A stretch of DNA of 22,474 nucleotides from a virus: positions 1-22,474 of the IMG/VR virus record IMGVR_UViG_3300035180_001180, one strand, 5' to 3'. The number at the start of each line of letters is the position of its first letter. Position 1 is the first letter of the stretch. Below are positions 6,586 to 14,695 of this stretch, one piece after another. The notes beneath the pieces are model-generated. The model saw nothing but the letters and a program-made list of their open reading frames with translations. It ran no database searches and had not been told where the DNA came from. Position numbers and translations under genes: made by a program.

Positions 6586-6594
6586 CCGTGTTAT

Positions 6595-6655
6595 CATTTA
6601 GCTCTACCTCTAAGCCCAAGGAGAAGGAGAAACAGCCTAGAGGCAGAGCTAAATG
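6595..6655 (-). repeat. Large imperfect inverted repeat (18-bp arms) at the end of the tRNA array
   Basis: Arms at 6595-6612 and 6638-6655 are complementary with one mismatch and enclose a 25-nt loop. On the minus strand the loop is pyrimidine-rich with two CTCCTT-like units, complementary to Shine-Dalgarno sequences. It does not fold as a tRNA. It starts five bases past the 3' end of tRNA-Pro, so it could protect the 3' end of the array transcript or guide its processing. Confidence 0.7.
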
Positions 6656-6986: not shown

Positions 6987-7059
6987 AGCACCTAGAGGGA
7001 CTTGAACCCTACATTCACTGATAGAAAGTCAGTTGTCCTAACCTTTAGACGATAGGTGC
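6987..7059 (-). tRNA. tRNA-Glu (anticodon TTC)
   Basis: The acceptor is GCACCTA/TAGGTGC. The anticodon stem is ACTGA/TCAGT with loop CTTTCTA, and the T-loop is TTCAAGT. CCA is not encoded (ACA follows), unlike most of the array. Its 5' end abuts the permuted element with no spacer. Confidence 0.92.
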
Positions 7060-7148
7060 ATACTTGGCGACTTTACCGATTTGTCTACCCGCCCGGAATG
7101 GACAGGGCTGGACTCGAACCAGCAACACTTGCGTGTTTTTGCCAATAC
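7060..7148 (-). tRNA. Circularly permuted class II tRNA-like gene (3' half before 5' half)
   Basis: This 89-nt block fills the space between tRNA-Val and tRNA-Glu exactly. Read 5' to 3' on the minus strand it holds GTA, anticodon-stem 3' strand TTGGC (7145-7141), a long variable arm AACAC-GCAA-GTGTT, T-arm GCTGG-TTCGAGT-CCAGC, acceptor 3' strand CCTGTCC, linker ATTCC, acceptor 5' strand GGGCGGG, TA, D-arm GAC-AAATCGGTAAA-GTC, anticodon-stem 5' strand GCCAA (7068-7064) and GTAT. Joined end to end it gives a full class II cloverleaf: acceptor 7/7 (two G.U), anticodon stem 5/5, T-stem 5/5, variable stem 5/5, D-stem 3/3 and a 7-nt loop (4+3). That loop would carry anticodon ATG. If the junction is instead 2+5, using two bases of the upstream CCA, it reads CAG (Leu), which suits a class II tRNA with A73. 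Specificity is therefore uncertain. It could instead be two half-pseudogenes from a tandem duplication. Confidence 0.62.
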
Positions 7149-7223
7149 TGGTGGATTCTGTAGGGATCGAACCTACGACCTACGCCTTGTAAGGGCGCCG
7201 CACTACCGCTGTGCTAAGAATCC
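7149..7223 (-). tRNA. tRNA-Val (anticodon TAC)
   Basis: The acceptor is GGATTCT/AGAATCC, the D-stem GCAC/GTGC, the anticodon stem GCGCC/GGCGT with loop CTTACAA, and the T-arm GTAGG/CCTAC. A73 and CCA are encoded. The permuted element starts at the very next base. Confidence 0.94.
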
Positions 7224-7478: not shown

Positions 7479-7648
7479 ATGTGGTATTCTCTCCGTCACC
7501 TTCATTGGCCGTAGCCTCCAGCAACTCAACTATTTAACTCGCATACCTGAGAGTTTATCTAGATTTTTGTTTCCAACGGGCGACCGATGGATTCTCATCA
7601 TGCAGTCTCTAGCTGTTACTGCACTAGCTGGAGCTATCAAGCACGTTA
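7479..7648. other. 170-nt unexplained gap inside the tRNA array
   Basis: I find no cloverleaf and no convincing reading frame. The minus strand holds several short pairing segments, for example GCAGT/ACTGC near 7608-7628 and GATG/CATC near 7585-7600, and a 3' part beginning GGAGGCTACGGCC that vaguely recalls a tRNA 5' half without matching T-loop sequence. It may be tRNA debris or an unrecognised structured RNA. Confidence 0.4.
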
Positions 7649-8050: not shown

Positions 8051-8078
8051 ATTCTACACGAGAACCGCCGTATGTCAA
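8051..8078 (-). promoter_or_regulatory. Promoter upstream of the tRNA array
   Basis: On the minus strand TTGACA (8078-8073) and TAGAAT (8056-8051) are 16 bp apart, about 17 nt before the tRNA-Tyr 5' end. It lies just past the small terminase stop codon. Confidence 0.7.
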
Positions 8079-8512: not shown

Positions 8513-8596
8513 GCCCCTACGGGGCCAGTCCTGCACAGGAAGACGGACCCTGCCGGGCAGGAATTCTCAACAATGAGAACTGGCCCTCTCCAGGGC

Positions 8597-8625
8597 TTGA
8601 CAAGACTGACTTCGTGCTGTACACT
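8597..8625 (+). promoter_or_regulatory. Early-side promoter for the plus-strand operon
   Basis: TTGACA (8597-8602) and TACACT (8620-8625) are separated by 17 bp. It reads into a 170-nt AT-rich leader and then the small genes from 8802. Confidence 0.75.
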
Positions 8626-8671
8626 ATAGTTATATGACTAAGACAACTTCTAAGTAATACTAAAGTATACT

Positions 8672-8766
8672 ACTTAGACAATACTTAGTTATTTTACTGA
8701 GAGGGTATTTAGTCAGGTAGTAAGGTGTTTACTTAGACAATAACTTAGACAATGACTTAGATATAC
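8672..8766 (+). repeat. Iterated ACTTAGACAAT elements in the early leader
   Basis: Exact ACTTAGACAAT copies lie at 8672-8682, 8731-8741 and 8743-8753, and a partial copy (ACTTAG) starts at 8755. The last three are spaced at 12 bp, close to one helical turn. The same 11-mer recurs at 22377-22387. They may bind a phage regulator. Confidence 0.7.
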
Positions 8767-8801
8767 CTCTTAATCATTAACTTTGACTGGAGGTATTATC
8801 T

Positions 8802-8936
8802 GTGCCCCGAAATCATGACGAAGCCCCTGAGTGGGGAGACGACGTTCTTGTCGATCTTCTCACCGTAATCGAACAACTGGACATTGGAAGTTACATGGAA
8901 GAAGCGCTACTGGAGGATGAGAATGAAGAACAGTAA
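8802..8936 (+). CDS. Small acidic protein, first gene of the early operon
   Basis: This 44-residue protein starts at GTG (8802) behind GGAGGT. It is very acidic (many Asp and Glu, ending LEDENEEQ) and has no membrane segment. Its 3' end overlaps the start of the next gene. I do not recognise it. Small acidic early proteins in phages often bind host enzymes or act as DNA mimics, but nothing here proves that. Confidence 0.7.
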   Translation: MPRNHDEAPEWGDDVLVDLLTVIEQLDIGSYMEEALLEDENEEQ

Positions 8937-9159
8937 GGCTATTCTGACTGGCAACCTCGAATCGTTTGTTGTGCAAATCCTTGAGGCATCAGACGAGGGC
9001 TGGGAAATAGACCCATCTAATCCTCCTACCATGCTTGGGTACAACTTCGAGTGCATCATGCTCCGTGACAGCGACATCAAGGACGAGGCCAAGCTTACTC
9101 GTGCAGAGATTCTGGCGAACGCAAGGGCTGCAAAAGCAGCTAAGAGGGAGCAATCGTGA
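8923..9159 (+). CDS. Hypothetical early protein
   Basis: The 78-residue protein starts at ATG 8923, with GGAGG at 8912-8916 inside the previous gene. It has a globular N-terminal half (SFVVQILEASDEGWEIDPSN, then a GYNFECIML strand) and a charged helical tail rich in Ala, Lys and Arg. It overlaps the next start. I recognise no family. Confidence 0.75.
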   Translation: MKNSKAILTGNLESFVVQILEASDEGWEIDPSNPPTMLGYNFECIMLRDSDIKDEAKLTRAEILANARAAKAAKREQS

Positions 9160-9434: not shown

Positions 9435-10241
9435 TTGGGAAGCAAATTTAAGGCCCGTCGCCAGACTCGCCGCGAAAAGATCGACAACACGCCCGATCCG
9501 CGATTCATCCGGTCACACGAGTACGCCTCTAACGACGCTCCTGCACCGACTGCGACAGCAGTTCCAAAACTGGAGCCGAAGAACAACAATCAACGCAAGG
9601 CCATCGGTCTTCTGACAGACGGTGTTCCAATCATCTTCCTGACTGGGAGTGCTGGGACAGGAAAGTCGATGCTGGCGGCGTATCGCGTTGCCCAGCAGCT
9701 CAGAAGCAAGCGAATAAAGAAGGTGTTCCTTGTTCGCCCAGCAGTTAGCGTCGGAAAGTCTGTCGGACTCCTGCCGGGAGACATCAAAGAAAAGCTTGCC
9801 CCGTACTTTGCTCAGACAATGAGCCATCTTGAGAAGTTTCTCGGTGCAGGATATGCAAAGTATTGCCTCGAAAAAGAGGTAATCGAAATGAAGCCAGTAG
9901 AGTACCTGCGTGGCATGTCATTCGAGGATTGCATTGTCATTGCAGAGGAAGTGCAGAACTTCACTTCCGAAGAAATGGAAATGATGCTTACCCGGCTTGG
10001 ATACAATTGCCAAATCGTCTTCACTGGAGATACGAAGCAGCACGACCTGAATGGAACTAGCGGGCTTGAGACTACGCTTAAGCTTCTTGACAAGATTCTT
10101 CAAGGCCACCCCGAGTACATGACGCACGACGACATGGACGAACTCGATGATGGCATCGGAGTGGTACGATTCACGCCTGAAGATGTCGTTCGTTCTGGAC
10201 TGACCCGTGCGTTCGTGAAACTCTACTACCACAATTCATGA
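9435..10241 (+). CDS. phoH: PhoH-like P-loop ATPase
   Basis: The 268-residue protein has a basic N-terminal tail followed by a PhoH domain. Walker A is GSAGTGKS (residues 71-78), followed by VFLVRPAVSVGKSVGLLPGD, a Walker B-like IVIAEEVQN and the FTGDTKQHDL motif. PhoH proteins are RNA-helicase-related ATPases common in phages; their role in infection is not settled. I choose TTG at 9435 because GGAGGTG sits five bases upstream; the in-frame TTG at 9423 precedes that site. The Walker B strand has AEE where many relatives have DEA. It has its own promoter. Confidence 0.9.
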   Translation: MGSKFKARRQTRREKIDNTPDPRFIRSHEYASNDAPAPTATAVPKLEPKNNNQRKAIGLLTDGVPIIFLTGSAGTGKSMLAAYRVAQQLRSKRIKKVFLVRPAVSVGKSVGLLPGDIKEKLAPYFAQTMSHLEKFLGAGYAKYCLEKEVIEMKPVEYLRGMSFEDCIVIAEEVQNFTSEEMEMMLTRLGYNCQIVFTGDTKQHDLNGTSGLETTLKLLDKILQGHPEYMTHDDMDELDDGIGVVRFTPEDVVRSGLTRAFVKLYYHNS

Positions 10242-10252
10242 AAGGAGCATAA

Positions 10253-10873
10253 ATGCGAAAGTTTGGCGTAACTACCACCACTCAGAAGTCTGCTGATGAC
10301 TCTGAATACGAAGACGCAAGCGCGTTCCGTGTTTCGTATGTACCCGCAAGTGCTGGTGTATACAACATCTTCCTGTACGGACCAATCTACGATGCCTCGC
10401 AGTTTGTAGATGCTCTTCAAGCAATGAGCGTTGCGTCTGAGAACGACGTTGTGCAGATTTACCTATCAACCCCCGGAGGTTCCCTTGATGCGACGGATAC
10501 GTTCATTCACGGCATGCGAGAATGTAGTGCTCGAATCATCGTAAAAGCATCCGGCGGTGTCCACTCTGCTGGTAGTGTCATCTTGCTGAACGCAGATGAA
10601 TTCACTCTCTCTGAGAATTTCAACTGCTTGATCCACAACGGCTCAGTTGGCCCTGCTGGAAAGTTCTCAGACTGGCGCGCAGAGACAAAGCACACAGACG
10701 CTTACATGGAGCGGGTGATGCGCTCGACATACGAATGGTTTCTGTCAGAGGAAGAGCTTGACAATCTTCTTGCTGGCAAAGACATCTGGCTAGACGCAGA
10801 GAGCTTCGTCGCCCGCTGGGAAGCGCGCAATGCTGCCTACGAGGCTGCAATCGAAGCGGCTGAAGACGAATAA
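10253..10873 (+). CDS. ClpP-like serine protease
   Basis: The 206-residue protein has the ClpP/crotonase fold signature: VVQIYLSTPGGSLDATDTFI (residues 67-86), a nucleophile motif GGVHSAGS with probable Ser105, and His128 in CLIHNG. The first 25 residues are low-complexity and acidic. ClpP forms rings that degrade proteins with an ATPase partner; no such ATPase is visible here, so it may act alone or with host ClpX/ClpA. It is distinct from the S49 head protease. AAGGAG precedes the ATG. A terminator follows directly. Confidence 0.85.
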   Translation: MRKFGVTTTTQKSADDSEYEDASAFRVSYVPASAGVYNIFLYGPIYDASQFVDALQAMSVASENDVVQIYLSTPGGSLDATDTFIHGMRECSARIIVKASGGVHSAGSVILLNADEFTLSENFNCLIHNGSVGPAGKFSDWRAETKHTDAYMERVMRSTYEWFLSEEELDNLLAGKDIWLDAESFVARWEARNAAYEAAIEAAEDE

Positions 10874-12565: not shown

Positions 12566-12701
12566 AAAAGAGTTGACACTGCACATGCAGTTGGCTATCA
12601 TGCTGAGCAAGTTAGGCATCCCGTGCTTACCTGTAAACGACGTAGGCGGGTATGTCCCGCACCTAGATGCGGTCTTCGTTAAGACTGCTGCAAACAACTG
12701 A
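12558..12701 (+). CDS. Small hypothetical protein
   Basis: This 47-residue frame starts at GTG 12558, eight bases before the upstream stop, behind AGGGAGG. It has one helix (LHMQLAIMLSKLG) and a beta-like tail. It lies immediately upstream of the RNA ligase. The function is unknown. Confidence 0.6.
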   Translation: MHEKELTLHMQLAIMLSKLGIPCLPVNDVGGYVPHLDAVFVKTAANN

Positions 12702-12711
12702 AGGAGAAAAT

Positions 12712-13914
12712 ATGCGGAAGCTTGCTTCTATTCAACGTGTCATCAACGTTCGCCCAATCCCTGGTGCAGACCTAATCGAAGCAGTCGATGTCCTTGGCTG
12801 GACTGTCGTCTGTAAGAAGGGACAGTTCGCTGTCGGCGACCTGTGCGTGTACTTCGAGATTGACTCGTTCCTTAACGCAGACGATGAGCGTTACGCCTCG
12901 TTTGAAGACCGCTTCACTAATTGGGGCACGAAACGCGGCATGCGTCTGAAGACTATCAAGCTGCGAAAGCAAATCAGCCAAGGGCTGATTATGCCAATCA
13001 GCGGCTACTTTGAGCTGTCGCCATCTGTCCGTATGAACCCAGTTGTCGAGGGCGAAGACGTTACTGAACTTCTCAAGATTGAGAAGTGGGAGCCGGCTGA
13101 AGAAGCAACTAGCAACGCTGGCGGAATTGGCAAGGTTGCCGGCTCCAAGCCGTTCCCGTCCTTCCTGCGAAAGACTGACCAAGAGCGCGTTCAAAACTAC
13201 ATTGGCGAGCTTCCGAAAGTTGCAGACCAGTCTTTCGAGGTCACTATCAAGCTCGACGGGTCTTCAATGACGATTTTCCATGTCAACAAGCTAAGCCCGC
13301 ATTACGCGCATGCAGCGGAGGATATCGAAGTACGCGCTGTCAAGCGTATGAGCTGGTTTGGCAAGAAGTGGCACGCAATCAAGAAGGCTGTCGGGCTTGT
13401 CCAGACTCCAACGTTCATTGACGGTCTGTGCAGTCGTAACATTCAGCTCGACATCAATGATGGAAACCACTTCTCGCAGTATGTCCGTGAGCACTGCCTT
13501 CTTGAAGCCCTGGAGAACTACGGTCAAAACATCGCTGTTCAAGGCGAACTGATTGCCCCCAGCATCCAAGGTAACTATGAAAAGGTTGCAGGCTTCGAGT
13601 TTTACGTGTATGATGTCTTCGACATCGACGCTCAAGGCTACCACTCACCTGAAGTCGCGCGAGAAATCGTCAAGGCACTTGGCCTGAAGTATGTCCCGGT
13701 ACTTCAGCACGGTGCTATGTTAGTTGACTTCGGTTTCGCTGAAGGAACGCCTGTGCGAGACGTTGTTGACAACATCCTGGCATTCGCCGAAGGAGACGGT
13801 ATGAACAAAGGCGTGAAGCGTGAAGGCGTCGTGTTCAAGTCGAACGGCAGTGAATTCAGCTTCAAGGCAATCAGCAACAGCTACCTTCTGCACAAGGAAA
13901 AGAAGGCAGCATAA
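12712..13914 (+). CDS. RNA ligase, Rnl5 (DRB0094)-like
   Basis: The 400-residue protein joins an N-terminal OB-like module (residues about 1-120, with GQFAVGDLCVYFEID) to a covalent nucleotidyltransferase domain. Motif I is KLDGSS with the AMP-accepting Lys180; motif III/IIIa lies around QGEL (277-280) and YVYDVF (298-303); motif IV is EGVVFK (371-376); motif V is FSFKAIS with Lys385. The N-terminal OB position is characteristic of the Deinococcus Rnl5 type rather than T4 Rnl1 or Rnl2. It would seal 3'-OH/5'-phosphate RNA nicks with ATP. It lies close to an RtcB remnant in a phage carrying many tRNAs, which fits tRNA repair. AAGGAG precedes the ATG. Confidence 0.88.
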   Translation: MRKLASIQRVINVRPIPGADLIEAVDVLGWTVVCKKGQFAVGDLCVYFEIDSFLNADDERYASFEDRFTNWGTKRGMRLKTIKLRKQISQGLIMPISGYFELSPSVRMNPVVEGEDVTELLKIEKWEPAEEATSNAGGIGKVAGSKPFPSFLRKTDQERVQNYIGELPKVADQSFEVTIKLDGSSMTIFHVNKLSPHYAHAAEDIEVRAVKRMSWFGKKWHAIKKAVGLVQTPTFIDGLCSRNIQLDINDGNHFSQYVREHCLLEALENYGQNIAVQGELIAPSIQGNYEKVAGFEFYVYDVFDIDAQGYHSPEVAREIVKALGLKYVPVLQHGAMLVDFGFAEGTPVRDVVDNILAFAEGDGMNKGVKREGVVFKSNGSEFSFKAISNSYLLHKEKKAA

Positions 13915-14350: not shown

Positions 14351-14695
14351 ATGCAAGTCATCCACGATGTAGGCTCCCGCCCTATCAAGGCATGGGTCGG
14401 AACAAAGGAAAAGTTATGGGAGCTTGAAGGGGCTGCGATCCCGTTCAAGGTGCCTGATATCGAAGATGCCGCGCTTGAGCAAGCGAAGAATATCGCACGA
14501 CTCCCGTTCATCCACCAGAATGGTGTGGCTCTTATGCCGGATGTCCATGCTGGAAAGGGCTCTACGGTCGGAACCGTCATTGCGACGGATAAGGCTGTGA
14601 TTCCAGCCGCAGTTGCTATAGCAACGACTATGGCAGTTCGAGTGACACCAGTTCGTGTAGCGACTCAAGCTACAGTTCGTCCGACTGACACATGA
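14351..14695 (+). pseudogene. rtcB: N-terminal remnant of RtcB RNA ligase
   Basis: Residues 1-86 match the N-terminus of RtcB, including IARLPFIHQNGVALMPDVHAGKG-type sequence (MPDVHAGKG at 62-70) and IATDKAVIPAAV. The family normally continues with VDIGCGM, whose Cys binds the catalytic metal, and about 300 further residues. Here the sequence becomes AIATTMAVR and then a short repetitive tail (VTPVRVATQATVRPT) to TGA. All later metal-binding histidines and the guanylylated His are missing, so it cannot be an active ligase. It is either a degraded gene or a retained short derivative. Its stop overlaps the next start. Confidence 0.8.

Follow-up and report, generated by a model that had tools for sequence, protein, structure and literature searches.

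The tRNA array and the element between tRNA-Val and tRNA-Glu

The window, meaning the whole stretch of DNA analysed here, is a 22.5-kb IMG/VR fragment of a tailed phage in which terminase, portal and major head genes were recognised; the nearest cultured terminases are ~41% identical and belong to Pseudomonas phages of roughly 95-100 kb. Its minus strand carries a tRNA array, with a small gene on one side and terL on the other. Eleven tRNAs were called in the array by ARAGORN and Rfam together, to which a Tyr-like and a His-like gene were added by reading the sequence. Between tRNA-Gly and tRNA-Leu, a stretch of 170 nt (7479-7648) has a fold z of -1.4, with no tRNA assigned and no Rfam match. 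A near-perfect inverted repeat of ~20 bp (6590-6655) separates the array from terL and is conserved in the relative L129. The window also encodes an intact ATP-dependent RNA ligase, a candidate, judging from its domains, for sealing 5'-P/3'-OH ends, and a truncated rtcB, unlike the full copies present in the contigs of relatives L124, L137 and L140 (Table 1).

The 89 nt between tRNA-Val and tRNA-Glu, read from 7148 to 7060 as part of the minus-strand array, hold the 3' half of a tRNA-like RNA, a short loop and then the 5' half, and therefore depart from the order of a linear tRNA gene. The first-pass annotation had described these swapped halves with their stems paired across a 5-nt linker, and the anatomy is real: all five stems are paired, giving 25 bp without a mismatch, and single-strand folding returns a clean cloverleaf at -30.5 kcal/mol (z -3.2), with one of 200 shuffles as good. 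ARAGORN, which that annotation had proposed running on the circularised sequence, finds no tRNA in the linear element but calls one once the element is joined, doubled or circularised. The D arm is of a kind common mostly to phage tRNA-Leu. Both sequence and fold indicate an intact tRNA elbow, a closed acceptor, whose AUUCC cap is not a special tetraloop, and the absence of an anticodon loop. Between the closing stem and the flanking tRNAs there are 3 and 4 nt, GTA and GTAT. The two tRNAs do abut the element directly, but the "zero spacer" reported earlier is true by construction, the element being defined as everything between them.

Table 1. Features of the element, its neighbours and related genes in the window
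Feature	Position	Strand	Remarks
Whole element, permuted tRNA-like RNA	7060..7148	-	3' half, short loop ATTCC (5 nt), 5' half
Closing ("anticodon") stem, 3' strand TTGGC	7141..7145	-	5/5 pairs with 7064-7068
Closing stem, 5' strand GCCAA	7064..7068	-	pairs with 7141..7145
Long variable arm AACAC-GCAA-GTGTT	7124..7137	-	5 bp, GNRA tetraloop
T arm GCTGG-TTCGAGT-CCAGC	7107..7123	-	5/5 pairs
Acceptor stem CCTGTCC/GGGCGGG	7088..7106	-	7/7 pairs, two G-U; no CCA
Loop ATTCC closing the acceptor	7095-7099	-	
D arm GAC-AAATCGGTAAA-GTC	7069..7085	-	3/3 pairs, conserved GG
tRNA-Val(TAC), upstream neighbour	7149..7223	-	intact, encoded CCA, directly abuts element
tRNA-Glu(TTC), downstream neighbour	6987..7059	-	intact, directly abuts element
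Sigma-70-like promoter TTGACA-16-TAGAAT, head of array	8051..8078	-	11/12 matches, consensus only
Second sigma-70-like promoter	7934-7907	-	11/12 matches, consensus only
ATP-dependent RNA ligase	12667..13914	+	intact; PHA02142 OB domain and RNA_ligase (Pfam)
Truncated rtcB	14351..14695	+	first ~50 of 426 profile positions left

Junctions, chance pairing and close relatives

The Val-side junction, CACCA followed by GTATTGGCAAAAACACGCAAGTGTTG, is identical in two relatives, L129 and L122, which match the first 26 nt of the element letter for letter, although the adjacent Val genes of the window and L129 differ at 9 of 76 positions. After these 26 nt, a deletion by T-arm recombination fuses the start of the element to the 3' end of tRNA-Pro. 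Both relatives have therefore lost the element, which indicates that it is dispensable, and, the junction being repeated in them, the swapped order cannot be put down to misassembly of the window contig. A collapse of two tandem tRNAs during assembly, which the first-pass annotation had raised, is thus contradicted on the Val side, whereas the Glu-side junction is seen in the window only. L129 additionally carries a tRNA-Met whose anticodon arm is split by ~440 nt with a PDDEXK_5 endonuclease ORF (8568-9075), and a group I intron in terL (10065-10280, Rfam), which is also present in L122.

The search for relatives with the same permuted order yielded none with the whole element, and the 31 loci of portal relatives hold no second intact copy. 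BLAST against 50,697 phage records gave no match for the joined tRNA or for nine naked (stem-less) elements, and a pattern retaining the ATTCC loop and D arm found no match in IMG/VR. Among 1,074 adjacent pairs of linear tRNAs, the acceptor strands (3' of one, 5' of the next) pair 7/7 in seven and the anticodon strands 5/5 in 25, with both occurring jointly in one.

Recurrence of stem-less modules in phage arrays

IMG/VR was scanned completely with two patterns, in which a tRNA ending in CCA has a T arm close behind it and a D arm after that; the patterns of the first collection had mostly returned tandem linear tRNAs. The scan gave 63 distinct matches, 35 of them outside linear tRNAs. At least six of the seven acceptor pairs form in 25 of these 35, and all seven in 20, compared with 1.8 on average and 8 at most when halves were randomly re-paired 10,000 times. 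In 84,980 prokaryote genomes, a search with one of the two patterns gave 56 matches; 50 of these are 3' tRNA remnants with an intact tRNA behind them, and none of the six outside linear tRNAs has a paired acceptor.

Some of the 25 phage modules have Y stems, and about a dozen are naked like that of the window (for example L184, L291, L294, L296, L297, L302, L306, L319, L322, L332, L333 and L366). Nine stem-less modules (L184, L291, L319, L322, L302, L306, L331, L333 and L366) resemble the element in adjoining intact tRNAs, in their permuted order and paired stems and in having no NCCA end in the acceptor loop, while differing from it in sequence. The acceptor is directly capped by UUCG in L306 and L366, by CUUG in L302 and by GAAA in L287, and such caps speak for an end that is to stay closed. 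In a family of modules (L184, L289, L291, L319 and L322, with L352 weaker), an acceptor loop TCAAG..CAG absent from the window is kept while all six adjacent acceptor pairs vary in a compensatory way. These six naked modules, which come from different phages, also have a D arm TAGTTTAA.TGGTAAAAC in common while their stems vary, and represent a distinct RNA family.

Of 13 contigs carrying Y-stem modules, 9 yielded a Ro-like gene, as against 3 of 19 carrying naked modules (p 0.0035); the contigs are fragmentary, such that absence from them is not proof. DUF2828 was the informative family in this comparison, the TROVE profile giving one weak match only. Several contigs with naked modules, one of them of 329 kb, yielded neither RtcB nor a PF09414 ligase; the PF09511 ligase profile had no match anywhere, the controls included. 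Six Y-stem modules (L261, L288, L314, L334, L353 and L356) have acceptor loops starting with NCCA (e.g. GCCATTAATT), which look like an encoded CCA end kept inside the loop and occur in none of the naked modules. In L287 and L311, whose contigs do have a DUF2828 gene, a naked module is followed by a conserved structured stretch, ACCAACCTGGCAAGGTGGC..GCTTTCAC..GTGAAAG.

Relation to bacterial Y RNAs

The bacterial Y RNA YrlA has two parts, a stem to which Rsr, the Ro60 orthologue, binds, and a tRNA-like domain similar to D, T and acceptor arms (PMC8394870). The first-pass annotation had missed this precedent for the swapped order. Rsr is tethered to PNPase by Y RNA in Deinococcus, and for the tRNA-like domain of YrlA a role as competitive inhibitor of an anticodon nuclease has been suggested (PMC7790460). 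Y RNAs have also been reported from mycobacteriophages, according to a work cited in PMC12282133. The permuted tRNA-like domain is thus already known, including from phages.

The Rfam YrlA model RF02553 matches 7127-7069 of the window at positions 27-81 of 114, within the tRNA-like domain only. The score of 24.3 bits (E 0.0034, for a search of 251 nt) falls short of the gathering score of 69. This domain would be matched by any permuted tRNA, and the match cannot separate a mimic from a permuted tRNA. No outer helix forms near the element, because intact tRNAs abut it on both sides, and its ends offer no Ro60-binding stem. Reading of the ORFs of the 22-kb fragment recognised no Ro60-like gene, which could lie elsewhere in the phage genome.

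Relatives with 68-70% terL identity (L124 and L125) carry rows of hairpins in the same terS-terL tRNA array, one or two of which enclose permuted tRNA modules of the Y-RNA type; that of L124 matches the YrlA model over its full length (Rfam). The hairpins are followed by a DUF2828/DUF7788 protein (checked in L125). The DUF2828 gene is present in L124, L125 and L141 and absent from L129 (a 61.8-kb contig). An AlphaFold model built from 19 phage homologues (pLDDT 82.5) has Ro60 structures as all ten of its best PDB matches, one of them from Thermus phage phiLo, and the protein is accordingly predicted to have a Ro60 fold. Permuted tRNA modules in this phage group therefore have a known counterpart. 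Rfam found no YrlA in the arrays of relatives L137-L141.

Interpretation of the element

On balance, the element is best explained as a Ro-independent tRNA mimic of the YrlA type, reduced to its tRNA-like domain and excised by the processing of the flanking tRNAs. With an acceptor that is capped and cannot be charged, and no anticodon loop, it probably does not decode. Promoter-like sites upstream (Table 1) make co-transcription with the tRNA array probable, and release by processing of the neighbours, as proposed in the first-pass annotation, is plausible: once tRNA-Val is matured at its 3' end and RNase P cuts at tRNA-Glu, the product would be an 89-nt RNA whose ends form the base of the would-be anticodon stem, with the T arm, closed acceptor and D arm between them. 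Such an RNA would more likely occupy proteins that bind the tRNA elbow, namely PNPase, as YrlA does; alternative targets may be host or defence nucleases acting on tRNA, as proposed for YrlA. An elbow without an anticodon loop could bind such enzymes uncut, and the lack of a Ro60-binding stem, unlike YrlA, suggests that it would act without Ro60. It is a more speculative and rather unlikely extension that permuted tRNA-like RNAs independent of Ro form a recurrent class in phage tRNA arrays, are released by processing of their neighbours, are perhaps circularised by the phage RNA ligase and serve as uncleavable decoys against host defence that targets tRNA.

The chief rivals to the mimic are a functionless relic and a true permuted tRNA. 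The former, a YrlA or tRNA copy whose outer parts were lost through recombination as the array changed rapidly, is possible though doubtful: a single intact copy, the T-arm deletion in L129 and L122, the truncated rtcB and the lack of a recognised Ro60 gene in the window would be consistent with it, but the mismatch-free stems, the fold z and the identity of the first 26 nt beside diverging Val genes count against it. Stem-less modules also recur in unrelated phages with compensatory acceptor changes, and the 3' tRNA remnants of bacterial genomes never have a pairing 5' half.

For a circularly permuted tRNA gene, as first proposed, processing of the neighbours would be followed by joining of the anticodon-loop ends by RNA ligase, opening of the acceptor loop by RNase P and 3' processing, and addition of CCA. 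The swapped order, the 7/7 acceptor, U33, A73, the Leu-like D arm and the long variable arm agree with this, as does the intact RNA ligase, since the substrate ends would be 5'-P and 3'-OH. The 3- and 4-nt ends do add up to the seven nucleotides of an anticodon loop, but only if the G directly after the D stem counts towards the first anticodon-stem pair. This G is normally base 26. As a rule, anticodon loops have a pyrimidine at 32 and a purine at 37. The joined loop, GUAUGUA, has G32 and U37, and among 3,072 distinct linear tRNAs from these phage loci, a sample somewhat biased by ARAGORN's preference for canonical loops, G occurs at 32 in 15, T at 37 in 51 and both in none.

The anticodon would be AUG, read by ARAGORN as His(ATG) on a class II body, which is not a canonical decoding tRNA; A34 on such a body fits no meaningful isoacceptor, and the array seems to hold a linear His gene already. 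The alternative junction that borrows two bases of the Val CCA (Leu CAG) was rejected, as it gives a 9-nt loop with CAG off-centre. Known permuted tRNA genes have a bulge-helix-bulge (BHB) motif at the junction (PMC3978253, PMC3218864), which cannot form here, where only GTA, GTAT and then the two tRNAs lie beyond the 5-bp closing stem. The element encodes no CCA, and the rtcB of the window is truncated. In other naked modules the acceptor is capped or the joined loop measures 6, 13 or 15 nt, and several such modules are on large contigs without RtcB and PF09414 ligases. With an intact RNA ligase and a truncated rtcB, ligation of the ends is possible and nothing demands it; the reading as a decoding tRNA is not supported and is considered quite improbable. 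An assembly or chance artefact, in which unrelated tRNA remnants came to lie side by side or tandem tRNAs collapsed, is very improbable, since a metagenomic contig with a Glu-side junction seen once and joint pairing in 1 of 1,074 linear pairs are outweighed by the Val-side junction of two other contigs, by the recurrence of the class and by five stems, a GNRA arm and cloverleaf spacing that fit together.

Y RNAs have been studied as partners of Ro60. A limited literature search gave no earlier account of copies that lack the stem, are independent of Ro and sit between tRNA genes. That a mimic module stands alone there without a Ro stem, and mainly in phages where no Ro60 gene was recognised, suggests that the mimic is useful in its own right. 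Linear tRNA finders overlook elements of this kind, as does Rfam at its threshold, and what looks like a "permuted tRNA" in a phage can be mimicking a tRNA and need not be a split tRNA gene.

Comparison with known systems

The element resembles the permuted two-piece tmRNA (RF04321) in the swapped order of its acceptor strands, and differs in having D and closing stems and no tag reading frame, with a match of 11.2 bits over a short stretch only. With the permuted tRNA genes of algae and Thermofilum (PMC3978253, PMC3218864) it shares a 3' half upstream of the 5' half and stems that pair across them, whereas it lacks the BHB motif and an evident isoacceptor, has a non-canonical joined loop and is found in a phage. 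YrlA (RF02553), which occurs in phages near a gene for a Ro60-fold protein, has the same order of T arm, closed acceptor and D arm and the same tRNA elbow; in contrast to YrlA, the element is without the Ro60-binding outer stem, abuts tRNA genes directly and has a long variable arm.
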